DNA from: Liolophura sinensis
Taxonomy: Eukaryota; Mollusca; Polyplacophora; Chitonida; Chitonidae
NCBI RefSeq assembly: GCF_032854445.1
Contig: NC_088301.1
Span: 14,194,281 to 14,258,280, forward strand
Length of the DNA stretch: 64,000 nucleotides
Reading direction: 5' to 3'
Below, in pieces: positions 20,101 to 63,022 of this stretch. Below the pieces are notes generated by a model. The model was not told where the DNA came from, did no database searches, and worked only from the letters and a program-made list of their open reading frames with translations. Numbering within the stretch: position 1 is the stretch's first letter; each line of letters begins with the position of its first letter. The translations under genes and the position numbers were made by a program.

Positions 20101-23100
20101 TATGTACATATATATCAGTTGCCTTGAAGACAGATATGCTTTTCTTTCAAAATATTTTACAATAGTGCTTAAATAGATTCTGAAAGAAAAAAATTAATTG
20201 TTTTTATCTCATTATATCCAGTAATTTGGTGCACATACTGTATTTCAACTTAAAGGATACATGAAAAAGTACTGTGAAACAAAGAGTATGATTTGAAGGA
20301 GCATGAAAAAAGACTCGATGCCAAAAAAGTACTGAAACAAATTCATTTTTGAGTCATATTTTATGGTTATTACCATCTCCCCTATTTCATGCACATTTTC
20401 TGTCCGTGGTCAGAAATATTCAGAAATAATGTCATTGATGAACTTACTGGGATGTGGAGCTTAGCGCCCCCAATTCGGGTTCTTCCCCCAACAAGGTTCT
20501 TCAGACAACTATCACTGTTGACGTCACCACAGCAAGCTACTTAATTCATGAACAGGGTTGTACTTTAAAGCCATTTTTATGCTCCAAGAGAAAGCCAGTA
20601 AACTTTTTGTAGTTTGTATGTTAGGCCACATCATACTATTTTTTAAGGAATAAAACACGCGTGTTTCATTTTTCATGTAAATTTTGTATTTTTAGAAGCA
20701 CTTACTGGCCTTTAAATAATACTTTTGATGTCAGTTCAAAAGTTTTTCTGTTCAGAAATTATTCAAGGTTCCCAAAAATTGATCACATAAGGTCCATGAA
20801 TCAGTCAGAATTAAGCAAAATGTGTCACTTGAAATATACTAAACCTTAGGTGAACTACAATAACACATAATTCATAGTGTATTGATGCAAATACAGCATA
20901 ATGTTCTTGTGTACAACAGCTATTGCTCCTGCAGCGAAATCAAAAATATTTTCAGTGAAAAACAAAGGAAGTCTGATGAGAGGAACATTGCGCGACTGAA
21001 GAAGGATATGGTCAGGACTGAGCAGCAGATGGAGGTCATTATTGAGGACCACCAGAGAGTTTTCACCATAAACACAGCCTTAAGGGAGCAGCTTGCCGGG
21101 GAGGAAGAGAAGGCTGTAAAACTGGAGGAAAGTCTCAAGGTAAGTGTGCTAAGTTAACACAGCCTTAAGGTAGCAGCTTGCCTGGGAGCTGTAAAACTGT
21201 AGGAAAGTCTCAAGGTAAGTGTGTTAAGTTAACACAGCTTTAAGGGAGCATCTTGCCGGGAAGGAAGATAAGGCTGTAAAACTGGAGGAAAGTCTCAAGG
21301 TAAGTGTGCTAAGTTAACACAGCCTTAAGGGAGCAGCTTGCCGGGGAGGAAGAGAAGGCTGTAAAACTGGAGGAAAGTCTCAAGGTAAGTGTGTTATGTT
21401 AACACAGGCTTAAGGGAGCATCTTGCCGGGAAGGAAGATAAGGCTGTAAAACTGGAGGAAAGTCTCAAGGTAAGTGTGCTAAGTTAACACAGCCTTAAGG
21501 GAGCAGCTTGCCGGGGAGGAAGAGAAGGCTGTAAAACTGGAGGAAAGTCTCAAGGTAAGTGTGTTATGTTAACACAGGCTTAAGGGAGCATCTTGCTGGG
21601 AAGGAAGATAAGGCTGTAAAACTGGAGGAAAGTCTCAAGGTAAGTGTGCTAAGTTAACACAGCCTCAAGGTAGTAGCTTGCCTGGGAGGAAGAAAAGGCT
21701 GTAAAACTGTAGGAACGTCATTGCCCGTAGTGAACAAATAATAGTACACAAAAGACAGCGTGGCTTGGGAAATCACTTGAGTGAAGGGGCCTCTATTTTT
21801 GCCTTGCATGTTGACTCAGACTGACCACTCAAAGCATACGCCACACCTTGACTGGCAAAAGTGTATACATGCACATCGCTGACCAGTTGACACCTGCCGA
21901 CTTTCTATATTGTCTACAGTTATATGGGTGAGAACCATCAACCGCCCACGGTGCGCTATTCAACTTGTCTGATCAGATTCACCTACAGCTCCTGACCCTG
22001 TTTTGTCAACTTTCCCTCAGAATCTGGTCAAAATGGTCAACGAATTAGGGTAGGTCAGCCACATACACAGCCAGACCCTAGTGTAAGGAAGACAAGACTG
22101 TCGATTTGAAGAGAAATCCCAAAGTATTTTAGGCACATTCTAAAGCAACAAACCTTGGCTTGATGTGGATGTCTCTCCATAAATGTTTGAAGATGTTTAG
22201 AAATGTTTAGAAGAAACATTAAATGTCATAAAAGTATCAGATGCAGTATTTGCTGGAAGTAACATCTACTTTCAGCAAACCATGGACACACTGAGGCGTC
22301 AGGTGAAGGATGAGGTACATACAAGAACTGTTCTCCAGGCTCGCATTTCCTCGGATACGTCAGATGTGAGCAAGTCCTCAGCAGAAACCCTTGAGAAGAA
22401 AGAGAAGGTAAATCATCCAGCAGTAGCAAATTTGCATTGGTAAAATGAAGTGCTGTTATTTATTTATTTATTTGATTGGTGTTTTACGCCGTACTCAAGA
22501 ATATTTCACTTATACGACGGCGGGCAGCATTATGGTGGGTGGAAACCGGGCACAGCCCAGGGGAAACCCACAACCATCCGCAGGTTGTTGGCAGACCTTT
22601 CCACTTACGGCCAGAGAGGAAGCCAGCATGAGCTGGACTTGAACTCATAGCGAAGTGCTGTTATTGACCATGGGTGTATTAACCCAATGGGCAATATATG
22701 ACTTTCTTAGTCTTAAAAACTAACGAGGAACATGGCCTGCCCAAAATGAAGGTGTTGTCTTTTGTTCTCCTCTGCAATATGTGGCTGTTTCTCTACAGTT
22801 GTGCTCTTAAAGCAGCGGAGTACTGTAATTCTTCAAGTTTTTCACATGTTTGCAAGGTGTTTATTCAAGCTTATTCTGAAGGCATTATTCTATGCAGACT
22901 GATAAAATTATATATTTGGCAAAGCCCTGAAACTGACAAATCCAACCAGTGTAGTTTTGTCTCCAAAACCTTATTATAAATGTGCTGAGGAATTAGGATA
23001 CTTCACTTGCACAAACAGAGAGTGTTGTACTTGTCTACATCTGGGGAAGCCCCCTTCATTCAGAAACGCCCAGAAGTACAAATCCTAAGACTTGGATGAT

Positions 23101-26100
23101 AGTAGAAATTGACTTTTAGACCTCCTTGCTTAAAAAAAAAACTCTTTTGGTACATGACTGCTTATTGGGTCCTGCGTGGAAATCTTCTAAAAGTCATTTG
23201 TCACATTGCCTGACAAAGTGACTTCCATTCCCTCATTTGCTATTCCCAAGTTATAGGTAGTAAATTTCACATTGTGATTTTCAATGTCACCTATATGTAA
23301 TGTTTGCGCATATATTTTCTGCTCTGAAGTTGCCGAGATTGAAATTTTTGTGATCCATGTTCTGTCCATGATCAGTAATTTTTCACCTACTTGAGGGCTG
23401 TCAGGTTTTATGGGTGGAGGAAACCAGAGTATTAAGAGTAAACCACAGTGTTAAGAGTAAACCACAACCCTTCTGCCTTAAATCCACAGCTGACATAGCA
23501 AGAGCAGAATTTGAACCAGTGACAATACAAGCCAATGCTTTCACCAACTGAGCCAAGGACCTTGCATCCTTTAGGGTGGAGCTTTTCGCTGCAGTCTTCT
23601 GAAATGAATCTGTGTACGCATATATATGCATTTGGTTTTATGTGATATTTAACAATTCATAGCTCGCCTGTACATAGTAGGCCTGCGAGTGTAGCTTATG
23701 TCATACCCTGAATTTTGGCGTCAGTATGCAATGACTGGGAAAACAATGTTAAACAAAATGTTAAGTGTAGTATCTTAAAAATTACTGCGGCAGTATGTTG
23801 GAAGGTTTCTCAGCAACCTGCGGATGGTTGTGGATTTCCCCTGGGCTCTGCCCGGTTTCCACCCACCATAATGCTGCCCGCCGTCGTATAAGTGAAATAT
23901 TCTTGAGTATGGCGTAAAACACCAATCAAATAAATAAATAAATAAATAAAAACGACTGCATATATTGAGCTCAGGTTTTGCACACATGTGGAGCTCAGTT
24001 ACAAGAACAGGATGTTCTGTTGTTTGTTCTATTGTTGATTCTCTGTGTGCCTATTAAATAGCATAAATTACAAAATTCATGTATTGTGTATTAGAATCAG
24101 TGCAAAAGTTAGGGATGGTATCTCAAGTACTGCATGTATTGAGCTGAAGTTATGCATATGTGAGGTGGATGTTCAATCGTTCAAGCTCTGTGTGCATAAT
24201 AATTACTGTAAATTACAAAATTCAAGACTGAGTGTATTGGAACCATTGTCATCCTGTGTGCATGCGTATTAATTACTTCAGTACTTTACATATTGAGCTG
24301 AAGTTTTGCATTCATGTGTCTCTTACAGTTGAGCTTTTTGGTAGCCTTTGCTATTAAATCTAAGTTCATTCAAATGATGAGGAGTCATTGTGTGTGTGCA
24401 CATACAGTGTTCTGTGTTTTGTGGCAGGGCCCGTTCATGCCGCCAAAGTGCTGCTGCCTGTGAAGTATCATGCGAAAGACACCAAACATGACACCCCCCA
24501 CCCAGTCACACTACACTGACACAGGACTCACCAGTCCCGTTTCCTTCCTCTAACTTTACAGCACTGAACACCAAGCAAGGCAGCCACAAGAACCATATTT
24601 ATGAAGTCATTAGTATGACCTGGCTTTGATTCCAGGTCTCTTGACTTTGAGGCATACATTCTATTCATATTCTATTCATATGGGAAATGAATATGTCTAG
24701 GCTTGTGCATTAGTGTGTTCTTTTAGCCAGTTTTTATACCTGAACAATGTCAGTTGTTACAATACGCCAAGATATAATCAGTGTAGCTTTGTGTTGTGAT
24801 ATAAAAATTTTTGATGTCTTTTTTCAGGTATCTGTGGTAGCCAATGATGTGACAGTAGCTGTATCACAGGTGGAAGACAAAGTCACACGACTTCGATCAG
24901 CCCAGGAGTCAAAGTTAAAGGTACCACTACATTCACATTTTGTTTTATTTTATATGAACCCTCATGGAAGTGAATACTGTGACAAATGAATTAATATTAA
25001 GTGATATCTTATTTCATGGACATTTTCTTGATTATGTGATTGTGTTTTTTGGTGAGTTTACATAAAGGAGCATTTTTGAAGTTCCACATGAATTATTGAA
25101 TGTTAGGATTTTCTTATTATATGCTTAAATTATTGTCATAGTATTTGGTCTCTTTTTTTGTGCTTTTGTAGAAAATAGAAGAATTAAAACGACAAATTGA
25201 AGAAACCGTAGAGAAGGAGAAAAATACTGAGAAAGAAATAGAAGAGCAGCTAAAGATATGTGAACCACACCATAGACATCTGAAGGTAACGTCATTGATC
25301 ATGGTGGCATGTAAAGGTGCATGGCTTTAATGCCTTGGTTAATTTTTCAGCAAAATCTTCCTAATCCTGACAGCTAGGCTATGACCTATAAGTGAGGAGC
25401 CCTCGAAAACAAAATCTTCAGCAGTTTCCGTAAAATTCTCTTGATGTGATGTGACAGTATTCCTTATGTAGCGATGAATCAGATAGATGTAACATTGAGT
25501 AAGGCAGTTATGCTGGAATGACGTCATGCGCATTTGAGAGTATGACATCATGTGTTAGTATACATCAGCAGTGGGTGATACCAAGTGTTGTTGCATGATG
25601 TCACAAGAGGAAACTTCTTGTTTCCATGTCATCCTCCGAAATTAACGCCAGCAGTTTTAATACAATGCAATTTTTGTACAGTTTAGGAAATCAATTCACA
25701 CTATCTTGATCCTCATCATTTAACCTTGTTTTTGGGACATAAAGATCTTCATACTGTAGTAGCTCTTTAACATATAAAGGTATATACAAAAAGCAGCTTT
25801 TTCAGCTTTCTTGTTATGGGGTAAAAATGTTGTCAAACTGCAGTTTTCCTAAGGTCAAAGTGATCTGTTCAAAAATTAAGTACCTGCAATGATGATGTCA
25901 ATTGTGATAACTGGTAAAACAATTCTGTGGGGAGAAGCACCCACATTGGGGCTCTGAGTTTGTTCCACTAAACTGATGAGATCATTGTTCACGTCATTTT
26001 TGTAAATTTTCGACCATTGACAGAAGACATGCATGAAATAGAGGGGTAATTTAGGGATGAAAAATATGCCTCAACAATGAACATTTGAAATAAAAAAAAT

Positions 26101-36500: not shown

Positions 36501-39500
36501 GAATCAACCTTGGAATACAAATTCCCTACCTAAGGCCAGGATAGAACCTGCTCTTTGTGTGGCAATGGCTATGAGACGAGCACCTTACTACTGAATCATA
36601 CTCCCAATTTTGGGAAATAAAGACAACTTTATTTTGATAAAGTAAAGATAAAGCATCCTTTATTTCTCAAGGCTTCCAGCCCCATTTTAATACAAACACC
36701 AAATAACCTTACTTTGATCAGGCAACAACAATTTTATTTTGTATTTTATGGTATTATTTATTTATTTTATTTATTTGATTGGTGTATTACGCCTTAGTCA
36801 AGAATATTTTACTTATGCGACAGCATTATGGTGGGAGGAGACCAGGCTGAGCCCGGGGGAAACACACAACCAACCACACGTTGCTGGAAGGCCTTCCCAC
36901 GTATGGCCAGAGCGGAAGACAGCATGAGCTGGATTTGAACTCACAGCGACCGCATTGGTGAGAAGCTCCTGGGTCACAAAAGTATCCTACCTGTAAATTC
37001 ATTACACTGGTTATGATTTCTTACCATACAACCTCCAGTCTACCTGGCTCGGCCAGATCCTTAAGGCTGTACTGTGACTTGTTAAAGGGTAGTCCTCCGT
37101 GATCCCCGGGGGTGTAATAATAACCACGCATCATCTTCATCTCCATGTCAGTTTTATCAGCCAAGTGGTTGACAGCCAGGCTGTAGGTTAACCCCTGGCG
37201 GTTTTTGGAATGAATGTACCTGTAACATCAAACCGCTGTAAGATTTATTTATTTTTCTTTCTTGCATCAGACAAAATGCTACATTTTTCTTTGGACAAAA
37301 ATAGTCAGGTGTTCTGTAGCAGATATATGCCTGGGTTATCTTCCTTTATTACTATAATTCTACAACCTTTTCGCATGTTCTCAAGGTGTTCATTCCAGCA
37401 AATTCTGAGGGCATTATTCTGTTTAGACAGATAAAATTATACTTTTTGTGATGCCTTGAAATTGGCAAATCCAACCATTTTGTCTCCAAAATCAAATAAA
37501 CTTAAAAAGGTGTATAAATTGCGCTGAAAAATGTTCTTTCATATGCGAAAAGGTTGAGAAATTAAGGTAGGTTGTGAAAACATCAGTCCCATCCCTGAAG
37601 CAATTTGCCTACGTACATCAGTCTTCTGTGCTGAATTGAGGGTTACTCAATTCACTGAGTAACCATGTAACTAAATGAATATTATTCGACTTTAGTTTAA
37701 CTCTAGACTCAAGAATTTTCTAATCTTACGATGGTGGTCAAAATCACTTAAAACATTCTTGGATATCCAGATGACAATAAAAAAAAAAGATTTTATCTGC
37801 CCATAAAACTGACGACTTCAGTGGCCTAATGGTTAAAATGTCCTTACGATGCTAGATAAATGTGACTGAGTGAGTGTCATGACTGGTGTCTTCAGCAGTG
37901 GTAGTGGTAGCACTTTGGCAGCATGGACTCGTCCTGTCCCAAGAAGACACACCATATGTACACACCCAATGACACCTTGTTGTCAAAAAAAAATGTATGT
38001 ATTGATTTTCTATGATCTAAAGAAAAAAAAGCAGTCCCATACCTGAAAAAAGCAGTCCCATACCTAACAAAGGCAGTCCCATACCTGAAAAAAGTCCCAC
38101 ACATGAAAAAAGCAGTCCCCAAACCTGAAAAAAGCAGTCCCATACCTAACAAAGGCAGTCCCATACCTGAAAAAAGTCCCATACCTGAAAAAAGCAGTCC
38201 CAATCCTGAAAAAACAAGTCCCATACCTGAAAAACCAGATATCAAAAAGACAATGCACATACCTGACATTGTTCCTGAAGAGGGCTACACGTCTGGCGTG
38301 TTCCTTGTCATCGTAGACCTTCCCGTGGGTTTTTTTGAAGGTGTCAAACATCTGGTGGATGTGCCGGTCATCGTTGTGGATGTACTCCCTCATGGGGTTC
38401 ATGAGGATGGTTCTCTCTGACACCCCCGGGCCGGGGAATCCTCCACAGGTCAGGTCTGCAAGGCAACACAAGTTCCACATAGTTTGTCAGACTTTCAATA
38501 AAGGACTTATCCTCATTTCCTTTTTGAACAGGTAGTGATTCTATCACTAGCATCACACCAAATACTCCGCTTTTCATTGGGCAACGACTGTCACATGGGA
38601 TACAGATATATTCTCGAATGACCCGGGAGCCTCTCACCAATGCAGTTGCTCTGAGTTGGAGTCCAGCTCATGCTTGCTTCCACTCCGGCCATACGTGGGA
38701 ATGTCTGCCAGCAACCTGCGGATGGTCGTGGGTTTCCCCTGGAGTCTGCCCTATTTCCTCCCACCATAATGCTGGCAGCCATCGTATAAGTAAATATTCT
38801 TGAGTACAGCGTAAAACTAAACTAAACTAAACTAAACAGATGAGTAAGTTGACCTGACAGACAGATTTTAACATTTTCATCTTCTAACATAAAGTTCTGA
38901 TCTCAAAGAAAATGTTATTGTTGTAGCTTTTAGCAAGTTATAGCAAAAGTTTGTTCCAGAGTTGTTTTTTACCCTAATTCCTTTTCGTATTCGAAACAGT
39001 AAGTTTCAGTGTGAATTACCCTAATTCTTAAACCTTTTAAACTGTCTCTGCAACCAATATTTCGGAACATTCTGAGACAACTATGGGGTGTAGAGAAATG
39101 ATCTGCACAGTTTTACGAACCCTGCATCTTTACAGTTACACAAACGAATTGTTTCATCATCATTTTGATAAAAACTGCATTCATAAATTTCACTGATAAA
39201 AGTACTTTACATGACAAAAGGGTTAAAGGTTTATGGTATGCACCTTTCAGGACTTGTGTACAAAACTACAATGGTTGGGTAGGCCAATGAAAGGGCTTCA
39301 CAAAAAGTGTAATTTTATCAGTCTACACAGAATAACTCCCTCTGAATATGATCTTCAATAAAAACTAGCAAACATGCAAAAGGGTAGAAGAATTACAGCA
39401 ACCCAAAAGCTGTGTACACTAATTCTTCAACCTTTTCAACCACCACTTCAAACAATATTTCGGAACTTTCTGAGAGAACCATGGGGAGTAGGGAAATGAT

Positions 39501-48572: not shown

Positions 48573-51500
48573 GTGAGTGGTAGAATTTGAAATATGTAAG
48601 TACAAATTTAAGATAAAATCATCTAGAGATAAAAATGTTAAATCACTTTGGCAAACTGCGGCCAGTTCTGTATAGTCATACATTAGGAAGAATGAAAGCA
48701 GTAGAAAGAATGAATGATAATAGCTTCCAACCTATTCAGCCCTCTCAATTCACAAGTGTACTTCTGTCCCAAAAAAAAAGTGCTGAGGCAAAGCAATAAT
48801 TCTGCGGCAAAAGTAAATTTGCCTCGGCAATAATATTTAAGATAAATATAAACACAGCTGAGTACAGTTGAAAGTAGGCCTGCATTATGGCATCCATACT
48901 CTGATATTATTTTGAACTCAATGCGGTACAGTTGTGACTCCTTTTATTTACTTTTCCACAAATATACGCACTGCAATTTCGGCAGCCTGCTGGTCTCGAA
49001 TATCATTCCCCCACCTTAAAATGAAACCTATCTGTCATAAAGGTCATGCTGACTAGGCCCCTCTCCCTGACATCAGATGGCGCTAATCGCTTCAGAACGG
49101 TCGCCATTGTGGGTTGGTTTCATTTAATATTACATTCAATGCAATCCATCTCTCATCCATCAACAGTCTTTTTCTTTACCGTTGCGTCTCAAAATTCTAA
49201 CTCGCTCCAAATTACGTCTTTTCTTGTCTCGGCTTATCTCTCTACTGAGCATTACTCTGTTTTTAAACTATCACTGGCAAACCCTGCCCATGCTGTGGAA
49301 GTGCCAGTAGGCATTTGGGCCTAAATATTGATAAATTTAGATGCCTAAAACCACCTTTTATACTTGAATTACTCTAATTCCTTGACCTTTTCACATATAA
49401 AAGAGCTTTCAGTCAGCACAATTTTAATGTGATTTTGGAGACAAAACTACATTGGTTGGATTGGAAAATTTCGTGGTTTCACAAAAACTGTTATTTTATC
49501 AGTCTGTACAGAATAGTGCCTTCAGAATGTATCTGAATAAACACCTGGTAAACCTGCAGAAAGGTTGAAGAATTACAGTACTGTAAGTCAAATTTTATTC
49601 AACAACACACAAGAGTTTATGTTCTCCCAGGAATGACATACTCAGCACTTTTTATCCCTTGTGGCTAAGCTATCATAATTAAGCATTCCCCTCGGCAATT
49701 GCCGGTTGCTAAGTGAATTGAGTTGGCTATCTGTTCAACGCAATTTCAGCCATCTCCTAGGAAACAAAAGGTGAAATGTAAGGAATGCATGAATAAATTT
49801 TTTGATGTCACATGAGCGTCTATGTGATGACAAGAACATTGAGCCATTAACTGTTTTGTATGTGTGATATTTTTGCTGCCATCTTTTACTTTGCTATGAT
49901 ATTGTAATTGTCTTTTTTATTACATCATATTTTGTGTACTGTGTGCATGGCAGTTCATATGAAATCCTATCATTCAAACTTCGATTCATTTGGGCATGAT
50001 ATACCTAAGTCAGGTATAATTGATGTTTATATCAGCTGACAGGTGTTAATCTGACTAAAGGTAGAGTGGAGATTGTTTACTGTCCTGCTTGATGTGAGTC
50101 ATGTTCAGACCTGTTGTACATAAGATGTTGCGTCACCGTTAGAGTCTAATTATAGCTGATCTAGCACAGGTGAAACAGGTGCCTTAGTCATAGATGCAGT
50201 AGTAGGTAGTATTGTCAGGGTTGCAGAAGTGCAGGTACCTGTAGTAGGTGATAGGTAAGGTATTTTTATTGAACAGTGGCATGTACTGTACACGAAGGTA
50301 ACCAAATTCTTTAAACTTTTCACCTGCCTCTGCAACCAACATTTTGAAACATTCTGTGATAACTATTGGTTGTAGAGAACTAATTTGCTCAGCTTCATGA
50401 AGGTTGCATCTGTAGTCACACAAATAAATTTTCTTTCCATTGTTTTCACAATTATTGCATGCATAAATTCCACTGAAAATATGTGCTATAGAGGTTGAAA
50501 AGGTAGAAGATTGACATGTAATATTGTTTAGTGGTGCACATAGTTTTAAAACCAGGTTTTGTACATATACTGTAATTGTTCAACGTTTTCGTACATGTGT
50601 GTTTGCAAGGTGTTTATTCAAGCATATTCTGAAGGCATTATTCTGTGGAGACTGATGAAATTATAGTTTTTGTGAAGCCCTGATATTTGCCTATCCTACC
50701 AATGTACATAGTTTTGTCCCCAAAACCAAATAAGAAATGTGCATAAATTGCACTTAAAGTTGCTCTGTCAGAGGTTGAGGAATTTGTGTTTTTAAATATA
50801 TAATAGTTACCCTGTCTTAATAGGTTTGAGTTTTTATATGGTGTTCATTTCATAAAGTATCATTCTGTATGTTATTACTGTAACTTACATGCTGTGAAGG
50901 ATTTATGAAATGTGACTGGAGAATAACAGTGATATTAAGGCTTCCCTTTAGTGCCTGGTTTTAGCCTACATCATTGGTCTATCTCATTTAACAGTGATAT
51001 TAAGGCTTCCCTTTAGTGCCTGTTTTTAGCCTACATCATTGGTCTATCTCATTTAACAGTGATATTAAGGCTCCCCTTTAGTGCCTGTTTTTAGCCTACA
51101 TCATTGGTCTATCTCATTTAACAGTGATATTAAGGCTTCCCTTTAGTGCCTGTTTTTAGCCTACATCATTGGTCTATCTCATTTAACTTTCTCATTTGAC
51201 TTTCTGACTGACTTTAAATCTCAATAAGAAGACTGAAAACTACTTTGTTCTGTCACGTGTTAGCATTTACCATAAACTAAATAAAGATTTCCTGTGGTTT
51301 CCTGGATCACTATGCTCCACTACATGTATTCGCCGAAAAGAAACAAAAACTTCATTATCAGGCCTGCAAAAAGATTCGATGTTCTCCATACCCACTGTTC
51401 CATACAAAAAAAGGCTATTTATGGTCATTTGATTGTGTTCCGTCCTCTTGTTATTACAGGAGCTGATGATGCTGGGCTTACAGTCTGTCTATGGTGCGGA

Positions 51501-54500
51501 GTCTGATGCTGTGGATCTGTGCTGTCTGATCAACTGTTGTCATGATCTCATTACACAACATCACAAAGCTATGCATGAGAAAGAGGAGCTGGAGAACAGG
51601 TGGGCTGTAACTATAGGGCTGATTCAAATGGTTTAAATGCTGCAACTAAGAGGCCAGAGAGGCTGCATGTTTGAATCCGGCTATTACTGTTTTGGCTGAG
51701 AGGTGTGTCAAGAGGTGTGTGAGGTATCTAGCAAAGATTAGTGGTTTACTCCACGGGCTCCAGTTTCTTCTACATGCAAGCTTGATCGTGCCAGTTCTCT
51801 AGGTACCCCGTCTACCGTCTGTCCTCTGTACAGCATTAGCGATACTCATCCCTGAAACAAAAACCACAATCTTACACTGCGCCATTGCTGCTATCTTCAT
51901 TCCCTTATTTATTTAAAAGTCATAAAAGTCATTAATCCTTGACCACGACTTTGAACATCAATTAATCCATGAGTATGTTGTATTGTATGACCAGCAGAGG
52001 CTAATGAGTAACAGTTGAACAAATTGTTTCCTTCTGTGACGTTTCACTTTTTTGTGTGCTAAGGTGTTTTATGAGCACACATATGCCAATGAAAGTGACG
52101 TAATAAAGGAAAGAAGAATAGATTTCATAGCTTGGACTGATTTGTTACAGGCAAGAAGAAAATCTCCTTTTCAGTATTTACTCTTACATATGTGTTTAGA
52201 TTGGTTCTGTTTTAGTTTGTCTCAGCTACCACAAATTTCTGTTGTACAGAATTCTTTGTATTTTGAAGAAGATGCTGTGATGTTATTGTTCTTGTTGTTA
52301 ACCAGGTACCACCGTTTGCTGTCAGATTTGGACCAATCACAGACCCTGCAGGCACGCCTAAAGGCAGATTTAGACCAGAGTCAGCGGCAGTGTGCGCAGT
52401 GTCAGGAGAAGGAACGACAACAGAGTGCTAAAAACAGAACACTAACAGCCAAACTCAAGTCCGAAAAGGAGGAGGTAGGATTATTTTGTCACGTCAGTCA
52501 CTCACTGCAGAGTTAGCTGTGTAACTTGTCTCCCTAGAAAGTTTAGAAACTCATTGTGTTGTGATTTTGGAAACAGTTTGATTAAAAGAGTTTAAAGTGA
52601 ACATAAAGCCTGCCACTATACATACAGAGAAAAAATGATGTAGGACACAGTTATCACAGAAGAGTTTGTAAAAAATTCTATAAAGGTTTGAAAGCCAAGA
52701 AGATGAAGTTCGTCAGTGGGGATATGGCACTGACAGACAATTTACTCTCAGTCGCCATGTTGTAGAAGCCCTTAAGAATGTGGCCAATCACTAGCGCTGA
52801 AACCGTCAGGTGATAATTGGCTGTCACGTCAAAGAACTTATTAGCTATCGAATGTCTGTGTGGTTTCTTATAGTGGATAGACAGGTAGTGATGCAATAAA
52901 TTGGATTTTGCTGTTAGTTTAATTGTTAATCTGATGCATTTTGAACCACACATATATGAGCAGGGAACTCAGAATGGCTTCATGTCACAGTGTGTACATG
53001 TTGGGCAGGAGACTACAGTAACTTGTCGGGGTCAGCTGCCAATAAAACCCCCTCGGGATAGTCATTGCTTGAAGAAAAGTATTGACATTATTTTTCCTTA
53101 GCAAAGTCAGCTTTACGACAAAAATATCTTCTCAAAATATGAATGGAGGGGTCATTATAAATCAGAAGGTCCTGCTATGTTCGGTAAATTCCCTGGGGTC
53201 TGTACAACCAGCGAGGCCAAGTGCTTACACCAGTACAGGACAAGGACAAGGACAAGCAGGACCGCTAAAACATGATGCTTGTGTCCACAAACATTGCCCT
53301 GCCCAAGCCCCAAACTAAAAACATTGGCTCCTTGAACAGAGCTGATACTCTTTGGTTGTGTATCAGATGTTTTTGTTTGTATTGTCTCATTGTCACATTG
53401 TTTAATATCGATGGTATGTGAAAGCTCCTAGGTTTTGTGACATCACTCTACATGGCTGTAACATGTCAAAATGGTGTCACCAAATGACTGGCTAGATACT
53501 GATGATTGTTTGCTATTTTTATGTTGTTGAGAAGTGCTGTAGACTTTTTAAAATATTTTTGGAACATTTCTGCAATACTACTTCATTAATTAATTCAGCT
53601 TAAGTGGCTGACTTTATGTTCACTTTAATGAACAATGCCACATGTTCATTCCTGCCAGCAAATCTCAACCAGCCTTTCTTAAGACTTCATAAATCAAGAT
53701 TAATTTTATTTTTTACTCGGGCATATCTTTTTTTTTTTAATTGGAAGTTTCAGATTGCGCCTCCCCACCTCCAGTAGTCATGAAGTGTGCTTCTCTTTGT
53801 TTTCAAATGTTTATATCCATTATATGATTTATCCGATCATCAATTAATCAATTATTTGATTTCCTGTTGTTTAGTGATGATTTGGTAAATGAGTTGGGGC
53901 TTGAACATTTGTCGTTTCACTAGGTGAAAAGGTTAAAGTCTGTGATGACAAGTCGAGATTTACAATACAAACATGATTTGAAGAAGAAAGAAAGAGAGGC
54001 AAACAAATTGAAAGAAAGGCTACATCAAGTGCTAATGGACAAGAAGCATGAACGTCAGATAGGTAAGCACTACACCAGGTGCTAATGGACAAGAATCATG
54101 AGCATTGGAGAGGTAAGGGCTACACCAGGTGCTTATGGACAAGAATCATGAGCATTAGAAAGGTAAGGACTACACCAGGTGCTAATGGACAAGAATCATG
54201 AGCATTAGAGAGGTAAGGGCTACACCAGGTGCTAATGGACAAGAATCATGAGCATTGGAGAGGTAAGGGCTACACCAGGTGCTTATGGACAAGAATCATG
54301 AGCATTAGAGAGGTAAGGACTACACCAGGTGCTAATGGACAAGAATCATGAGCATCAGAGAGTTGAAGGCTACAGCAGGTGCTAATGGACAAGAATCATG
54401 AGCACTGGAGAGGTAAGGACTACACCAGGTGCTAATGGACAAGAATCATGAGCATTAGAGAGGTAAGGACTACACGAGGTGCTAATGGACAAGAATCATG

Positions 54501-57500
54501 AGCATTGGAGAGGTAAGGGCTACACCAGGTGCTTATGGACAAGAATAATGAGCATTAGAGAGGTAAGGACTACACCAGGTGCTAATGGACAAGAATCATG
54601 AGCATTAGAGAGGTAAGGACTACACCAGGTGCTAATGGACAAGAATCATGAGCATTAGAGAGGTAAGGACTACACCAGGTGCTAATGGACAAGAATCATG
54701 AGCATTAGAGAGGTAAGGGCTACAGCAGGTGCTAATGGACAAGAATCATGAGCATTAGAGAGGTAAGAGCTACACCAGGTGCTAATGGACAAGAATCATG
54801 AGCATTAGAGAGGTAAGGACTACACCAGGTGCTAATGGACAAGAATCATGAGCACTGGAGAGGTAAGGACTACACGAGGTGCTAATGGACAAGAATCATG
54901 AGCATTAGAGAGGTAAGGACTACACCAGGTGCTTATGGACAAGAATAATGAGCATTAGAGAGGTAAGGACTACACCAGGTGCTAATGGACTAGAATCATG
55001 AGCATTAGAGTTAAGGGCTACACCAGGTGCTTATGGACAAGAATAATGAGCATTAGAGAGGTAAGGACTACACCAGGTGCTAATGGACAAGAATCATGAG
55101 CATTGGAGAGGTAAGGACTACACCAGGTGCTAATGGACTAGAATCATGAGCATTAGAGTTAAGGGCTACACCAGGTTCTAATGGACAAGAATCATGAGCA
55201 TTAGAGAGGTAAGGCTACACCAGGTGGTGATTGACAAGACGCATGAGCATTAGAGAGGCACAGGCTACATGAGGTGCTGATGAAGAAGAATCATGGATGT
55301 TAGATAGGTAAGGTGCTACACCAGGTGCTAATGGACAAGAAGCACGAACGTCCGATAGGTAAAGGCTACACAAGGGGCTATTGAAGAAGAAAATTCAACA
55401 CTATATACATGTAGGTAAGGGTTTCGCTGGATGCTAATCATGAAGATATGGTGTGCATATATGTATGTCACGTGTTTTTTCCCCCACCCATAATGCTCTC
55501 TATCACTGAAAGCTTAAAAAATCTTGATTATGGTGTTAAATGGCTGTCAAATAAATAAATACGTCAGTATGACCTCAAGCACTCGGGTTTCCTCCACCTG
55601 TAGAAACTGAGCATATCAGAAGTCTTGAGAGTGGCGTTAAACAACAGTTAAATAAATAAGGGAATGAAGATAGCAGCAATGGCGCAGTGTAAGATTGTGT
55701 TTTTTGTTTCAGGGATGAGTATCGCTAATGCTGTACAGAGGACAGACGGTAGACGGAGTACCTGGAGAACTGGCACTAACAAGTAAGCCATACCTGACCC
55801 CTGTCATTATTAGCCTTCCTCTCCGGCCCCACATGCTAAGGACTACCAGGAACCTGCAGAAGGTTGTGGGTTTCACTCGGTTTCCTCCCACCATAATGCT
55901 GGCCGCCATCGTATAAGTGAAATATTCTTGAATACGGCATAATACACCAGTCAAATAAATAAATAAATCATTATTAGCCTGTACATTTCGGCTTTCACAA
56001 GGAGTTTGTGGATTCCCCAGCTTTATCTGTTCCTGGAACATTGGTGACTTCAAGCACTCATTTGATGCTTATGTCGCCATTTGCACCGTTGAAAATTTGC
56101 TGAAGACCTCTTGTTTCTCACCAGTTTGATGTGGATGTCTGTACATGTATGCCACATGTGGGAAATTTGTCAGTCACTTGCCCAAGGTCAGTGGTTTACC
56201 TGGACACTCCACCCATAAAACTGACCGTCGTGTAATCAAGTGAAAAATTCTTGAGTATGGCGTTTATAAACAACAATCAAATAAATAAATGAACCCATCC
56301 TGGGAGGACTAATACGGATGTGTTCTATAATATTTATGTATTTGTTTGTTTGGTTGATGTTTTATGCTGTACTCAAGGATATTTCACTTATACGATGGCT
56401 GGCTGCCATCGTATAACCCACGACAATCCTCAGGTTTGTGGCAAACCTTACCACATATGGTTGGAGAAGAAGCCAGCATGAGCTCAACTTTCATTCACAT
56501 GACCGCATTGGTGAGAGGCTCCTGTGTCTTTGCACCGCACTTGCATGCTAATGACCAATTCCATGATACCTTACCTTATGACAGACATACTTTGGTTAAT
56601 GTGTGAGTGATAATGTATTATCCTGTATTAGAGGTTGTTTAGCATTAATGTGTTTGCCTCTCGTCTAGTCGTGTGTACCTGAAAGAAAGGCTCTGATAAA
56701 ACAGAAATACAGATCTCTTCATACTCCTGAAAGAGCAAATGTTATGCCATAGTTATTTCAGAAGAGGGCTGAAGCAGTTTTTTTGTCTGATATGCATGTT
56801 AACTTTATAAATCAACTTTTCATCGAATCACTCTTACATCAGTTCATGTGATGTCTGCAGAGAGAGTTGCGTTTTCGGGCTCTAGAAATAACTTGTGTCT
56901 GATTGGTTAAAATTGACATGATGGCGCTTTTGATTTTCTCAGTGTACGCATTTTAGCTTATCTTGAAGTGTAATATATCTTGTAAGCTTTTTAATCTTTG
57001 TGTGGGATACTTCATTGATATATTTAGCCAAGTGTTTTCTTTTAATGTGTATATGCTAAATAATAGGATGAATTTTGGCATTTGCAGACAGGAAGAAGAG
57101 ATGTACCGCTCTGTGATATCAAACTATGAAGACAGGCAACAGATACTGATGCTAGAGAACGCCAAACTCCGAGACACTTTACAGAGCATGCAAACCGAGA
57201 TTGTGTCACTGTTGAATCAGCAGGACTCTCCTCTCAAGGCCTCTGTACAGTCGGTGAGGATACGTTATTATGTACAGTATCATCACCACTATGTTATTAT
57301 GTACAGTATCATGACCACTGTGTTATTATGTACAGTATAATTACCACTATGTTATTATGTACAGTATCATGACCACTGTGTTATTATGTACAGTATCATG
57401 ACCACTGTGTTATTATGTACAGTATCATGACCACTGTGTTATTATGTACAGTATCATGACCACTATGTTATTATGTACAGTATCATGACCACTGTGTTAT

Positions 57501-60500
57501 TATGTACAGTATCATGACCACTGTGTTATTATGTACAGTATCATCACCACTATGTTATTATGTACAGTATCATCACCACCACTATTAACATCTACATAAG
57601 ACAGGCTCCTTGCTGGCTGTGCTGGTTAAAGCACTGTTACTGTCAGGCTTGTGACCAGTGATGTTGACTGTTTCAATCCAGTTACGTGTGTTTGGCTGCA
57701 GCTGTAAGTCAGGAGGTTTGGCAGGGGTCTGGCATTGGTTGGTCGTTCACTTTAGACACTCTGGTTTACTCCACCAGTAGACCTAACTGATGTGGTGTAA
57801 GGGGAAAACTCTTGAGTATGGCATGAAGCGCGGGCAGATATTTGTCTGCCATGGGGAGATTCGGTAATGAACTTAATGAACAGATAGTAATGTAATTGTT
57901 CTTCAATACTCTTCAGAATTGTGTTTGTTTGAGGTGAAAAAGCTGGTGAAATAGATTAATTTGTCATATTACTAATGAACTGTTCTGTTTCCTATATAAC
58001 AATAGTTGCTACATATATACAACACTACGTGTGCCTATAAGTTTGTACCTCTTCTGATGATCTGTGGCCATAGCTGAATTTTAACATCACTTGGCTATTT
58101 AGATTGTTTCCTCACACATTCCTACCAATTTTTCCTTTGTTGTTCACCGTCATGAGGTAAATTTTATACATACAAGTACTGTAAAGCATAAAGGATTAGT
58201 CCAATAAGTTTATTTAAGATTCACTTCGTTTATAATAGATACATGGAACGTTTAGTTATTGATTTTTTTTTTTCACCGACACTTAATTATGTGTCTTAAC
58301 ATTTAAAAGTACAAAACGGCTTCTTAGGTTTCTTCTTGGGGTGTAAAAATGTGTGTAAAGCACAGTTTTCCTAAGGCCTGAGCAATGAAACATTATTTAG
58401 CCTGCAGTGGCCACACCATCAAACTGTCAAAACCGCTGTGAGGTGAAGAGCTGTGAATGGAGGTCGCAAGAGTGTTCCTGTTCCTAGACAATTTATTGAT
58501 AGTATCATTTGTGAGAATTTCCAGCTATTGACAGCAAAAATTGCATGAAATAGAGAGGTTATTAAAGAATTTTTTCTCGTCTTATGAAGTAAGGGGAGAT
58601 ATTGTGTGAGGGGGGATCAGACAGATACTGTTGGTGTCGGTGTCCAGTTTAGTTGGAGTTTTGGCCAATCATAGGGTTGCCATCGCCACCCATAGTACAC
58701 AGATAGCCAATCACTGGTAGTGATTTGCATATCAAAGACCAAGGAAATCTTTACCTCATAGCTCAACATTTTGTTCAGCTATTCACAAGGTTGCAGTTGC
58801 CTCACACGGTACATGGATTGCCAAATGCAGTTTGTGATTTGTATATGAAAGACCTCTGTGGTAAAGTTGTGCACAAACTCCCCACAGTATCTTGTACCAG
58901 CACAGTGATTTACAACTCCATAACTCCATGAAGTCACTGCTCTGCAATCCTTACAACTGTATAATAATTTTGGTATTTCTTGTTGATTCAGTGGCAAGAT
59001 CTTATAATTAATTTATATAATTAGAAGATCTATATAATCTGTGTATGACAGTGTCAATTATTATTATTATTTTTTCTTTTTGATTTAGAGGTTAATATTT
59101 GAATGTATCACATGACTTAAACATCATACAGTTTGACAAACTGCTCCCGTTTTCATTTCTGTTAAAACCATAATCCTTAAAATGTTGTAGAATCCCTTTT
59201 CATGTGTCCTTTAAGTATAGTAAGTCAGAGTTATCTCCCTTGTAGGAGTCCCCTGAAGTTTCACTCTCCTGCAGTGATGATGATGTCAGTGTTGGGGCCT
59301 CAGAGTGCTCTGTGCTGTCTACTGATAAGCTATCTGAAGGTATAACTGGACAACTATTCCACATGTGATTTGATTAACATGATTTTAATTAAATGCCTCG
59401 TCAAGTTCATGTCTCAAATCTGTTGCATTCACAAAATATTCCTCTCCTTTTATTTTATTTATTTATATGATTGGTGTTTTACGCCATATTCCAGAATATT
59501 TCACTTATACGAGGGTGGCCAACATTATGGTGGAAGGAAACTGGGAAGAGCCCGGGGGAAACCCATGACCATCCACAAGTTGCGGTGAGACCTTCCCACG
59601 TACGGCCTCTCCTTTTAAGTTGTGTCTCCAGTGAACAAATGGACTGATAATGACTAGAAGTGTAATAATTGTATTTTTCTTCTCGGAGATATTGTGTGTA
59701 AGGTCTTGCTTATGAAACTCTTGTTGTTCTGTTGTATTTTTAGGCTTGTATCAAATGCCTTACGACATGGTCCAAAAAGATATAGAGAAAAATTTCCATG
59801 ATACTTGCCGTATGTTGAAAGAAGTTGTCAAACATTCCAAGAAAAAAAAACTATCAGGTAATTTTCATTAAACAGTTAAGTTACAATTGCATGATGGTTT
59901 ATGCAGCTATGTTTTGCATACATGTATGAATATGCAAATTAGAGATACGAGTCTTTATAAGGTTTATGAGGCTGTCTTCATGAGACTACACACTGGAAAC
60001 ATGACAATCTCAGTGTATGGAAGTCATTGCTCTCTTTCTCATGGAGAGTGAACGTGGTTTCACGAAACTTGTTTTGCTGAAGCCATATTACAATATGAGG
60101 TAATGTTTGACTTCATGATTTCTGAGAAACGCTCCATGTGGGACTTTTTTGAAATTAGAAAGTGTCTTGAACGAGCCCCGTGGTATTTCTCAAGATCTGG
60201 AAATTACTCATCCCAATTTCTGAGCTTTTGCTTTCTGCAGGGCATTCATGACCAGGTCAGGATGATAGTCATTTATGTTATCTGCAGGTGGCAACAGTGA
60301 ATGTTAATACCCTAATTCTTCTAATTTTTTAGACGTGTATTAGTAGTGTTGAAAGCAGAATATCACATTTCTTTTCCAGCTTTTGGGAAAAGTGAAGACA
60401 CGAATATGTTGTTCATTAGATGGTCTAGCCATGTGAGAAAAAAGAAACTAAGTGCTCCTGCTACAATTACATGTCCATGTATACTGGCTAAAAAGAGCAC

Positions 60501-63022
60501 ACCAGGGTGTCCCAAAAATTTGAAGAAATATTGTAGTTTGGTTATTTTTTAATACATACTGTAAAGCTTTCTATTTCTTATGATGTCTGTCCGTCTCTAT
60601 CTTTGGTTGCAATTTTTACACCAGAAGCTTAGTGAAGTGTAACCTGTCTTCTGCTTTCATTTTGATTTTTGAAAATTGATTTCAAATAATTGACAATTTC
60701 AATGAAGTCTTATTGTCATTGATTTTCTAGTGAATTGCCTATTTTTTATGAGATTATTTTTAGTAAATATCTACAAATACCTATTCTTGATCTGTTATTG
60801 TAGTGCCTGTGAAAAAGAGCAAGAACACATCTAATGGAGAAATAAAAATGTCGTCAACGCCTGTGTCCAATGGGATAACCTCTAGAGAGAATGTGGAGGA
60901 GTTAGTGGATAAATTGACAAAATACAAGTGGCTGGTGAAGGAACAAGAGGAATTTATACAAGTGAGTTACATCACACAGCTGAAAGACCACTCCGTTGGC
61001 TTAATTGTTAGAACACCTTCATTGAAGTCAGGAGACCTGGGATCAGTTGCCGGTCACGTCATACTAAAGACTTGAAATGGTACTTGTTGCTGCCTCATTT
61101 GGCTCTCAGTAGTGAGAATGTTGAGTAAGGAATCAGGATTGGTTTGCCTTGTGTCAGTATCATGTGACTGGTGGGGGTGTCATGTCGTATTTCAGTAGTG
61201 GCAGCACTTTGGCAGCATGGACTCAAGACACCCCTGCCACAAGGCGACACAGTATATCTGCACACACCTAATGACGTCAAACCCCAAGCATTCATTCATT
61301 CATTCTTTCACACAGTTGAGAGTCTGATAAGTGAGAAGTTTCTATAAGGTGAAAGATCATTATAAGTTTGTACAAGTAAGTCATCACCCAGGGGAGGAGG
61401 TGAAAGATCAGAATAAGTTTGTTGCATCACATGGACGAGAGAGTGAAAGATCAGGAGGTTATTACAAATGAGTCACTTCACACAGGTGAGGAAGTGAAGG
61501 ATCAGGATAAGTTTGTATAGGTGTGGAGGTGAAAGATCTTTATAAGTTTGTATAGGTGAGTCATCATACAGGTGAGGAGGTGAAAGGATAAGTTTGTATA
61601 CGCGATCATCACACAGTTGAGAAGGTGAAAGATCGAGATAAGTTTGATCAGGTGAGTTACATCACACATATGAAACACAGGTTAGAAGGTGAAAGATAAG
61701 GACATTTATTTATTTGATTGGTGTTTTACACCGTACTCAAGAATATTTCACTTTTACGATGGCAGTCAGCATTATGGTGGGTTGTAACTGGGCAGAACCC
61801 GCGGGAAACTCACAACCATCTGCAGCTTGCTGACAGACCTTCCCACTTACGGCCGGAGAGGGAGCCAGCATGAGCTGGACTCGAACTCACAGCGACCGCA
61901 TTGGTGAGAGACTTCTGGGTCATTTAACTGCGCTAGCGCACTAACCAACTAAGCTAACCACGGAGGCCCCTTATAACCTTGTAAGAACAGTGTAGAAGTA
62001 CTGCCGTAGAAATATGGCAAACCTTCAGGAATCCTCTGTTGTTTTCAGCAATCATTACACAGTCAGTCTCAGTCTGTGGAGAACTCGTTTCTGCATGACT
62101 CCCAGCTGTTACATGACAAGGAGAGTCTGGCTGAGGAACGACGACGCTTGTATCAGGCTAAGGCCAGGTTTGAGGATGAGCGCAAACAGCTGACTGAAGC
62201 TGCCATACGGCTCAGCAGACAGGTACAGTCGCTTTACCCTGTTCTCTGTTCCATAGATACGTTAGTTCTCTAACGTTTTATATGTGAAAGAGCGATTTAT
62301 GCAACCATAAGATTTGATTTTGGAGACAAAACTCCATTGGCTGGCTTAGTCAGTTTAATGGCTTTGCAGAAGTGTAATTTTGTCGGTCTGCTCAGAATAA
62401 TGCTCACAGTGTATGCTTGAACAGACGTTGTGTAAACATGTAAAAAGGTTATAGAATTGCAGCACAGTGACTGCAGAGTGGGAAAATGCCAGTGAAATAT
62501 TTCTAACTAATGGAAGGGTTCCAGTGACAGATTAAAATCTTTATAATGTAAATATTGGGGCATGAAAAGTAAATAGAGAAAGCATGGAGTGGGTTAATTG
62601 TTCAGGTTGGACACGATTACTCATGGTATTGAAACTTCATTCATGCACCTTGCAGTGGACATTGTAATTTACACCTTGTCCTGTTGGAAACAGTCTATTA
62701 ATAGCGGTATCCCTGCATGTACTTTCATGTGAGGAGAAAAGGTGCAGTACCTTTAGAGATAATTGTATTTTTGGGTGATAATGTGATGGTAAAGTAATTT
62801 AGCAAAGATTTTTCGAAACATTTTCACTGTAGTTGATTTCAAGATATATGAATTTATTGAAAATAGTGTTGAAGAAGCACAATGGATTGCCCCTCTGCTA
62901 TTCTGTTTTATTTTAGAGAAAAGATTTAGAAGATGAGAAGGCTCGTGTATTACAGCAGCAGTTTCTCCAGTTTTCTCCCTTTGTTTCTGACAGCGATCGA
63001 TCCACCGTGCTCAAATCAAAAG
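48366..63022 (+). CDS. SSX2IP: SSX2IP / ADIP, afadin- and alpha-actinin-binding protein, 11 exons, 3' end outside window
   Basis: Exons: 48366-48572, 51460-51599, 52306-52474, 53924-54062, 55713-55782, 57088-57253, 59246-59339, 59744-59857, 60804-60961, 62049-62222, 62917-63022 (1537 nt, 512 codons so far; human SSX2IP is about 614 residues). The start MADWGAW parallels human MGDWMT. Strong matches are [20 protein letters not shown] (exon 4), [15 protein letters not shown] (exon 5), [20 protein letters not shown] (exon 6) and [20 protein letters not shown] (exons 10-11). Mostly coiled coil with a Ser/Asp linker in exon 7. The vertebrate protein links nectin/afadin to alpha-actinin at adherens junctions and works in centrosome maturation and ciliogenesis. 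All phases agree. Three introns carry donor-derived arrays and one holds an inverted exon-5 copy. Confidence 0.92.
49370..49582 (-). repeat. MITE-like family A copy
   Basis: CTAATTCCTTGACCTTTTCA at one end and GAAAGGTTGAAGAATTACAG at the other, interior reverse of 37350-37578. Confidence 0.68.
50295..50515 (+). repeat. MITE-like family B copy
   Basis: AATTCTTTAAACTTTTCACC, CAACCAACATTTTGAAACAT and GTTGAAAAGGTAGAAGATTG, next to a family A copy at 50571. Confidence 0.62.
50571..50792 (+). repeat. MITE-like family A copy
   Basis: TGTAATTGTTCAACGTTTTC start, AAGGTGTTTATTCAAGCATA interior, GAGGTTGAGGAATTTG end. Confidence 0.68.
50925..51186 (+). repeat. Four-copy 65-bp tandem repeat
   Basis: Exactly spaced starts of AACAGTGATATTAAGGCTTC at 50925, 50990, 51055 and 51120, almost identical. 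In SSX2IP intron 1, about 270 bases before exon 2. Unlike the other arrays it does not resemble an exon end. Confidence 0.95.
51460..51599 (+). CDS. SSX2IP: SSX2IP coding exon 2
   Basis: 140 nt, acceptor ttattacag, donor CAG/gtgggc. Reads [20 protein letters not shown] then CCLINCC, matching ELTTFGFPSLYEE. Confidence 0.9.
51640..51787 (+). mobile_element. SINE family 4, cut short by inverted duplication
   Basis: Head region with GTTTGAATCCGGCTATTACT, body ATTAGTGGTTTACTCCACGG; the expected trailer is replaced at 51788 by the inverted exon-5 copy. Confidence 0.6.
51788..51916 (-). repeat. Inverted copy of SSX2IP exon 5 and its acceptor (129 bp)
   Basis: Reverse complement of 55648-55776 with only three mismatches by eye. 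It covers a SINE tail, the 3' splice site and most of exon 5, and lies antisense in intron 2. Confidence 0.92.
52306..52474 (+). CDS. SSX2IP: SSX2IP coding exon 3
   Basis: 169 nt, acceptor gttaaccag, donor GAG/gtagga. Reads [20 protein letters not shown] and [20 protein letters not shown]. Confidence 0.92.
53924..54062 (+). CDS. SSX2IP: SSX2IP coding exon 4
   Basis: 139 nt, acceptor tttcactag, donor GATAG/gtaagc, phase 1 out. [20 protein letters not shown] is the best-conserved stretch. Its last 43 nt seed the array that follows. Confidence 0.93.
54063..55400 (+). repeat. 50-bp tandem array of exon-4 end plus splice donor
   Basis: About 25 units. Each is a variant of the last 43 nt of exon 4 plus GTAAGGA, so GAGAG/gtaagg recurs every 50 bases. 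Most units share CATGAGCATTAGAG; the penultimate full unit (about 55317-55365) is closer to the exon (AAGCACGAACGTCCGATAG). Units include TAATGG in the read-through frame, giving a stop if intron sequence is kept. Confidence 0.95.
55648..55776 (+). repeat. Source arm of the 129-bp inverted duplication
   Basis: Contains SINE tail TTAAATAAATAAGGG, the acceptor tttgtttcag and 64 of 70 nt of exon 5. Its partner is 51788-51916, 3.7 kb away, flanking exons 3 and 4. Confidence 0.92.
55713..55782 (+). CDS. SSX2IP: SSX2IP coding exon 5
   Basis: 70 nt, acceptor tttgtttcag, donor ACAA/gtaagc, phase 2 out. Reads [20 protein letters not shown], matching the RADGKRGSWRTGK block. Confidence 0.92.
55838..55970 (+). 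mobile_element. SINE family 1, 5'-truncated
   Basis: Core CCACCATAATGCTGGCCGCC and AAATAAATAAAT tail, 56 nt after exon 5 of SSX2IP. Confidence 0.75.
56040..56290 (+). mobile_element. SINE family 4 copy
   Basis: CAAGGTCAGTGGTTTACCTG, TTCTTGAGTATGGCGT and an AAATAAATAAAT tail in SSX2IP intron 5. Confidence 0.6.
56328..56535 (-). mobile_element. SINE family 1, internally rearranged
   Basis: Tail and head present (GACCGCATTGGTGAGAGGCT) but the core is shortened. Confidence 0.65.
57088..57253 (+). CDS. SSX2IP: SSX2IP coding exon 6
   Basis: 166 nt, acceptor atttgcag, donor TCG/gtgagg. Reads [20 protein letters not shown] and [14 protein letters not shown]. Confidence 0.92.
57254..57590 (+). repeat. 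29-bp tandem array beginning at exon-6 donor
   Basis: About 11 units of TTATTATGTACAGTATCATG plus nine bases, starting 11 nt after the donor. The exon end TCTGTACAGTCGGTGAGG aligns with TATGTACAGTATCATGAC, so the unit probably derives from the exon-intron junction. Confidence 0.9.
57605..57850 (+). mobile_element. SINE family 4, with tRNA-like head
   Basis: TGGCTGTGCTGGTTAAAGCA (A-box region), GTTTCAATCC (B-box), then the GGTTTACTCCACC body; directly after the 29-bp array. Confidence 0.62.
58290..58565 (+). repeat. Dispersed repeat family C
   Basis: Same order of landmarks as 25740-26060 (GGGGTGTAAAAATGTG, TTTTCCTAAGG, GCATGAAATAGAGAG). In SSX2IP intron 6. Confidence 0.5.
59246..59339 (+). 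CDS. SSX2IP: SSX2IP coding exon 7
   Basis: 94 nt, acceptor tcccttgtag, donor GAAG/gtataa, phase 1 out. Acidic/Ser-rich ([19 protein letters not shown]). Confidence 0.82.
59452..59612 (-). mobile_element. SINE family 1, head-truncated
   Basis: ATTGGTGTTTTACGCCATAT through CCTTCCCACGTACGGCC in SSX2IP intron 7. Confidence 0.72.
59744..59857 (+). CDS. SSX2IP: SSX2IP coding exon 8
   Basis: 114 nt, acceptor atttttag, donor ATCAG/gtaatt. Reads [20 protein letters not shown], matching the ETVREQLTNSIRKQWRILK region. Confidence 0.88.
60804..60961 (+). CDS. SSX2IP: SSX2IP coding exon 9
   Basis: 158 nt, acceptor ttattgtag, donor ACAA/gtgagt, phase 0 out. Reads [20 protein letters not shown]. Confidence 0.88.
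60987..61305 (+). mobile_element. tRNA-derived SINE, family 3, inserted in donor array
   Basis: Head CCGTTGGCTTAATTGTTAG (A-box-like) and GGGATCAGTTGCC (B-box-like), body with GTAGTGGCAGCACTTTGGCA-type text, and a CATTCATTCATTC tail. The flanks CACACAGCTGAAAG and CACACAGTTGAGAG are near-duplicates. The body is shared with 37810-37985. Confidence 0.65.
61306..61700 (+). repeat. Irregular ~51-bp array of exon-9 end plus splice donor
   Basis: Units of the form GAGGTGAAAGATCAGGATAA then GTTTGTATAG/GTGAGTCATCACACAG. They align with exon 9 (GGTGAAGGAACAAGAGGAAT, TTATACAA/gtgagttacatcacacag). About seven diverged units; separated from the true donor by a SINE. Confidence 0.82.
61704..61970 (-). mobile_element. 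tRNA-derived SINE, family 1, full-length copy
   Basis: Read on the minus strand: a tRNA-like head with A box TAGCTTAGTTGG (61956-61945) and B box GAGTTCGAGTCC (61888-61877), a central block (CCACCATAATGCTGACTGCC) and a tail GTGTAAAACACCAATCAAAT-AAATAAAT. The core resembles the Meta-type SINE domain known from bivalves, by memory only. It is the best copy of about 16 in the window. Confidence 0.82.
62049..62222 (+). CDS. SSX2IP: SSX2IP coding exon 10
   Basis: 174 nt, acceptor gttttcag, donor CAG/gtacag, phase 0. Reads [20 protein letters not shown] and [15 protein letters not shown], a very strong ADIP match. Confidence 0.94.
62262..62466 (-). repeat. MITE-like family A copy
   Basis: GATTTTGGAGACAAAACTCC and the AAAAAGGTTATAGAATTGCA end, in SSX2IP intron 10. 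Confidence 0.6.
62917..63022 (+). CDS. SSX2IP: SSX2IP coding exon 11
   Basis: 106 nt, acceptor attttag, donor AAAAG/gtgctg, phase 1 out. Reads [20 protein letters not shown], matching ERKAFEEERASWLKQQFLN. Later exons are off the window. Confidence 0.9.

Follow-up and report, generated by a model that had tools for sequence, protein, structure and literature searches.

Tandem arrays across exon-intron boundaries in many genes of a chiton resemble the mirage minisatellites of amphioxus

The mirages of amphioxus are tandem duplications that cross exon-intron boundaries, at the 5' and the 3' end alike, in genes that are nevertheless spliced regularly. They were described in Adh3 and in the globin genes BflGb6 and BflGb9 (PMC3087553), and have also been reported in PGBD5 and troponin C (PMC3902484). 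The repeats are minisatellite-like, AG/GT signals are present in many copies though not in all, and the BflGb6 cluster is homogenised in its interior and not at its ends. Two further systems touch on the same ground: the Rogers model of intron gain (cited in PMC3087553), in which a single boundary-spanning tandem duplication supplies the splice signals, and the introner-like elements (PMC4457414), which affect introns of many unrelated genes as dispersed related copies.

Here we examine tandem arrays beside splice sites in the chiton Liolophura sinensis, in a 64-kb window (the whole stretch of DNA analysed, 14194281-14258280 of contig C7) and at loci elsewhere in the genome. Gene models came from a purpose-written exon-chaining gene finder that uses splice-site frequencies and codon scores trained on window exons, and that was retrained on 57 exons for the genome-wide loci. 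The window holds a coiled-coil gene on the + strand (12.4-29.4 kb), named CCDC178 in the preliminary description of this DNA, a cathepsin-like gene on the - strand (Pfam I29, 2.9e-15; Peptidase_C1, 3.7e-25) and an SSX2IP-like gene on the + strand (Pfam ADIP, 1.4e-27 for the joined exons). Copies of a short interspersed element at 61706-61903 (with TTTACACCGTACTCAAGAATATTTCAC) and 23775-24050 were mistaken for coding sequence by the gene finder and in the lists of open reading frames. Seven merged arrays at score >=80, called with TRF, cover 4.8% of the window; two arrays absent from the preliminary description, at 40856-40958 and 50924-51187, are distant from modelled donors. That description had placed five arrays at or near donors; the donors as modelled here are at 21140, 38262 (minus strand), 54063, 57254 and 60962. 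All five are real by TRF, and those with 85- and 50-bp units do span their donors; the other three start elsewhere than at the donor. The features are as follows.

20935..21139, + strand: CCDC178-like host exon (gene finder score 57; coiled-coil coding)
21071..21719, + strand: 85-bp donor-spanning array, reaching 69 nt into the exon; donor 21140
38263..38455, - strand: cathepsin-like host exon of the I29/C1 peptidase gene (gene finder, Pfam)
38025..38234, - strand: 21-bp array, many copies with TTTTCAGGTATG, 28 nt downstream of donor 38262
53924..54062, + strand: SSX2IP/ADIP-like host exon of the 50-bp array (gene finder; Pfam ADIP)
54016..55391, + strand: 50-bp donor-spanning array of about 27 copies, reaching 43-47 nt into the exon; donor 54063
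57088..57253, + strand: SSX2IP-like exon adjoining the 29-bp array (gene finder)
57264..57579, + strand: 29-bp array, starting 10 nt after donor 57254
60804..60961, + strand: SSX2IP-like exon with an end similar to the 51-bp unit (gene finder)
61306..61700 by eye (61484-61631 by TRF), + strand: degenerate array of 51-bp units that derive from exon end and donor

Each repeat unit was compared with the junctions of 33 chosen exons (30 with a gene-finder score >=17, three with 10-14), and the rank of the host junction was recorded together with the scores of 300 or 500 shuffled units as a null. The host junction came first of 33 for the 85-bp unit (152, next 24) and for the 50-bp unit (72, next 20), scores that none of 500 shuffles equalled in either case. 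For the 51-bp array it ranked first under lenient scoring (32, next 19; 0 of 300 shuffles equal that, maximum 22) and was missed under stricter scoring (rank 5 of 33; 155 of 500 shuffles); set against the exon side alone, the host tied for first (18 and 18). Thus the 85- and 50-bp units, and by lenient scoring only also the 51-bp unit, copy the end of the host exon together with its donor, which bears out the claim that three of the five units combine the end of an exon with the first intron bases. The 51-bp array, said to lie within about 20 nt of its donor, in fact begins about 345 nt downstream of exon end 60961 and donor 60962, inside the intron, and the stretch that matches the junction best is close to its distal end. 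Within the 50-bp array, the penultimate of the 27 intronic units comes closest to the exon in sequence, at 0.86, the other 26 scoring 0.71-0.80, which fits a minisatellite that is homogenised, though less so at its ends.

The two remaining units had been said to resemble their junctions; the 29-bp unit does not do so beyond chance, and the 21-bp unit is at best a candidate. The 29-bp unit ranked its host second of 33, a score reached by 22 of 500 shuffles, with the whole array at rank 5, and the 21-bp unit ranked its host first (5 of 500 shuffles; whole array at rank 6) on a common stretch of TCAGGTATG only. Both arrays are merely near donors, without spanning a junction. The 21-bp consensus (38025-38234, minus) contains TTTTTTCAGGTATG, in which an acceptor runs straight into a donor without an intervening exon, much as in a recursive splice site; of about 10 units, not every one has the full motif.

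Two-unit probes from two of the five window arrays were run against 609 Mb, in a search that skips common words, so that the counts are lower bounds: at least 5 matches to the 85-bp array and at least 14 to the 50-bp array, all at their own loci. A transposon or dispersed satellite origin is thereby ruled out for these two units, and the earlier statement that the arrays are not one transposon holds for the units probed.

To set the arrays against their genomic background, we took 20 seeded random 10-kb pieces (L001-L020) from the first 14 Mb of each of contigs C1-C10 and counted merged arrays at score >=80 and period >=8. There were 58, with a median period of 31, and they made up 20.2% of the 200 kb. 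The published repeat table for Liolophura japonica leaves 14% unclassified and assigns 0.08% to 'other (simple repeat, microsatellite, RNA)' (PMC11068029); minisatellites may make up much of that unclassified fraction. Among the 58 arrays, one verified case spans a donor, a 61-bp unit reaching 44 nt into an SMP-30/regucalcin-like exon (L013, 4484-4627; Pfam SGL), and one spans an acceptor, a 63-bp unit at a beta-mannosidase exon (L001), so the process inferred earlier as biased to exon-intron junctions finds no backing in the sample. Two two-copy duplications, both with edge scores of 19-21 and judged by eye, lie at or near acceptors: a candidate acceptor-spanning one in L018, and one at 3289-3371 of L013, 8 nt ahead of its acceptor.

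Array edges in the window and the random pieces, read on both strands and compared with 642 random positions, agree with this. Predicted exons ending at an array's 5' edge numbered 4/130 at score >25 (three of them in the window) against 10/642 in the control, and 5/130 against 22/642 at score >18; in the random pieces alone the figure was 1/116 at either threshold. Exons beginning at an array's 3' edge numbered 0/130 against 13/642 at score >25, and 4/130, one of them spurious, against 22/642 at score >18. Strong exons therefore adjoin array edges about as frequently as they do random positions. The 5' edges of the window by themselves gave 4/14 at score >18 against the same 22/642 (p ~0.001), in a window that was chosen for its donor cluster and with the cathepsin case scored on a donor inside its array. 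Conversely, among about 45 exons outside arrays (from 47 found, some of them artefacts), 2 to 4 of about 90 junctions were touched or neighboured by an array, against 18 expected at 20% coverage (rough p values of 5e-7 for two junctions and 2e-5 for four); the junction count is a lower bound, since it left out any exon that lies entirely within an array, and exons adjoining arrays may escape the gene finder. As far as this goes, arrays shun junctions rather than being drawn there.

Loci with arrays of splice motifs were then sought by motif. For donors, triples of CAGGTAAGT at a period of 34-64 on contigs C1-C3, counted by eye among the matches listed, gave at least 16 loci (two with a common unit) against at least 6 for the reversed motif (p=0.05). 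Two kilobases upstream were taken for 15 of the 16, and 6 of these 15 have a clear coding-exon donor at the array start. The exons belong to RPC1 (L025; PDB, E 5.9e-9), a GH31 glucosidase (L026; Pfam, 3.5e-13), an MH2 (SMAD) gene (L034; Pfam, 5.3e-11), genes that we take to be DERA (L027) and of Sec7 type (L028), and a sixth whose exon has its reading frame as sole support (L033). Two further arrays probably span donors, L029 and L023, the latter with a GC donor and a match to polycystins in the PDB at E 0.04 only; at the edge read of the other seven (L021, L022, L024, L030, L031, L032, L035) no coding exon was recognisable. Ten exon queries to Pfam yielded five matches (ADIP, C1/I29, SGL, GH31, MH2) and none for L023, L025, L027, L028 and L033, while the PDB search gave nothing for L027 and L048 and a chance match for L028. 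Loci L031 and L032, 67 kb apart on C2, share a 40-bp unit and are alike in their flanks, from which it follows that the array itself was duplicated.

For acceptors, triples of TTTTKCAGR, with loci counted by eye among 100 of 200 places, gave at least 26 loci among the matches listed. One match, repeated three times on C7 near 11782343, 11811969 and 11841601 at a spacing of about 29.6 kb, is probably a tandem segmental duplication. The 3' edge was examined at 20 loci, setting aside the window's own array, one three-copy locus and four on C8-C9, and 4 of these 20 arrays clearly span an acceptor, at exons of YjeF_N (L041; Pfam, 9.1e-12), RPN1_C (L052; Pfam, 9.5e-22), raptor (L036; PDB) and cyclin H (L042; PDB, 7.7e-8), the last counted as clear given its PDB match. 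L047 is a probable fifth, by reading frame alone. Three of the 20 apparently span donors on the opposite strand: L044, at an exon of CWC22 (PDB, 1.2e-15), and, by reading frame only, L046, whose exon is presumably rotatin, and L048. By eye, no coding exon could be made out beside the remaining 12, at the edge read; some arrays of this kind may adjoin non-coding exons. A further ten Pfam queries matched YjeF_N, RPN1_C and an MRP-L47 exon of L010 that bears no relation to any array, gave PDC10_C at chance level, and found nothing for L042, L044, L046, L047, L048 and the short raptor exon. The preliminary description had stated that no array starts at an acceptor; acceptor-spanning arrays at the YjeF_N, RPN1, raptor, cyclin H and beta-mannosidase exons contradict this for the genome at large, and with verified exons among them a strict donor polarity is ruled out.

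Whether donors are nonetheless favoured is a quantitative matter. Clear cases stand at 6/15 for donors and 4/20 for acceptors (Fisher p=0.27; 3/20 and p=0.13 without L042), and at 8/15 and 5/20 with the probable ones included (p=0.16), for motifs that were only roughly matched, from splice-site frequencies, and with flanks of differing length. Clear donor cases are about threefold denser per Mb, a soft figure, given at least 16 loci of the donor motif over about 148 Mb and at least 26 of the acceptor motif over about 410 Mb, all counted by eye among the matches listed. The higher locus count per Mb of the donor motif, the donor cluster of the window and the arrays of either motif with no coding exon recognised at their edge all weigh against an explanation by selective filtering. 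By raw matches the order is reversed, the acceptor motif being more enriched over its reversed control (TTTTKCAGR, 200 against 27) than the donor motifs (AGGTRAG, 8545 against 3534; CAGGTAAGT, 316 against 171). We rejected such match counts as proof of enrichment because long arrays dominate them, and counted loci instead. The triples thus establish the existence of splice-motif arrays at both donors and acceptors, but they do not establish a bias; a donor excess may exist but is unproven.

Two genes illustrate how the arrays are arranged. The cyclin H exon has a 56-bp acceptor-spanning array before it and a 101-bp donor-spanning array after it; in the raptor gene an acceptor array is followed by its exon, by the next exon and by a 61-bp donor array that had not been selected for, and the exon pair, read from the exon-proximal sites, aligns without gaps to residues 279-330 of raptor in the PDB. 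Of 17 arrays at donors only three (21, 39 and 54 bp) had a period divisible by 3, so the copies are not kept for coding, and in most donor arrays the reading frame would shift if splicing took place at any copy past the exon-proximal site. At least one spare donor scored as high as the exon's own in 14 of the 17, seven of which had been picked for consensus donors (8 of the other 10 have such a spare); the 17 include the window's 29- and 21-bp arrays, both without an equal spare donor, and L027, whose offset spacing kept the script from detecting any.

We consider it likely that the arrays of the window and of the wider genome are mirage-type minisatellites, the outcome of ordinary minisatellite birth filtered by selection. 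This genome forms short tandem duplications very frequently and expands them, as the 20% array cover of the random pieces shows. A chance duplication across a splice junction would leave one complete exon-proximal site and an intact mRNA, and would be tolerated because splicing at that site remains possible; to judge from the reading frames, the site used would be the first donor of a donor array and the last acceptor of an acceptor array. The other copies, sitting within the intron, could multiply and become uniform through slippage or unequal exchange, and duplications within coding exons would mostly be purged. The apparent anchoring at donors would then be the residue of a genome-wide process after selection, perhaps with a moderate real donor excess, and no special affinity for donors would be required. 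A mutational process that starts duplication preferentially at 5' splice sites, through R-loops or through transcription- or U1-linked breakage, would account for the three donor-derived window arrays (the sole acceptor-edge match there is a spurious exon inside the 51-bp array), for the higher share and density of clear donor cases, and for the acceptor-motif arrays that look donor-spanning on the other strand. The difference between donors and acceptors is not significant, however, and comes from imperfectly matched motifs and flanks; the random pieces have one donor array against one acceptor array and the two-copy acceptor candidate of L018, and their array 5' edges carry strong exons no more often than control positions do. 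On balance we regard such a process as possible but unlikely. It is a little more doubtful still that chiton 5' splice sites are hot spots of minisatellite birth, with introns growing from their donors and a spliceosome that reliably picks the first of up to dozens of equal or stronger donors.

That the arrays mark the birthplaces of introns, created by tandem duplication of AGGT segments as in the published Rogers-type gain model, would suit the MH2 paralogue L056, which is 87% identical over the exon and has no intron where the SMAD gene of L034 has its donor and array. One paralogue cannot distinguish gain from loss, though, and among the introns examined none is demonstrably young. A donor array, moreover, supplies only donors and hence lengthens an intron whose acceptor must come from elsewhere, acceptor arrays being likewise one-sided; we judge this origin very improbable. 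Scarcely credible is a dispersed mobile or satellite element that carries splice signals and inserts at junctions in the manner of introners: many genes are affected and two of the 15 donor-motif loci have a common unit, but the units differ in sequence and length from gene to gene, and the two probed occur at single loci.

Minisatellite birth followed by selection, the reading we prefer, places the chiton arrays beside the mirages of amphioxus. Both consist of minisatellite-like repeats across 5' and 3' exon-intron boundaries; the chiton arrays have units that span the boundary (those of 85, 50 and 51 bp in the window, and others at verified exons elsewhere), they occur at both kinds of boundary in the genome, and the two units probed are of own-locus origin. 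Those two units show no related copies dispersed over many introns such as mark introner-like elements, and the many copies per chiton intron differ from the one duplication of the Rogers model. The recurrence and polarity of the arrays had been put forward as undescribed; mirages, as presented in PMC3087553, are the same phenomenon, at both boundaries. Unlike them, the chiton arrays occur in a mollusc rather than a cephalochordate, affect many unrelated genes, reach about 27 copies and, at cyclin H, lie on both sides of one exon. In open-access full text the mirages found were all from amphioxus, with no report from molluscs, which is weak evidence of absence; what is new here is the molluscan host, the number of genes affected and the presence of arrays at both boundaries of a single exon.

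That so many molluscan genes have mirages suggests an origin wherever minisatellites abound, and an ability of introns already in place to lengthen by duplicating their own edges. Annotation may pick up false mini-exons from such arrays, and our gene finder did call spurious exons inside them. With spare donors as strong as the exon's own in most of the donor arrays, these genes allow the choice of donor to be tested directly in living tissue, and if 5' splice sites were indeed hot spots of minisatellite birth, the chiton genome would amount to a natural experiment on a large scale, in which the spliceosome has to choose among sites that are identical.
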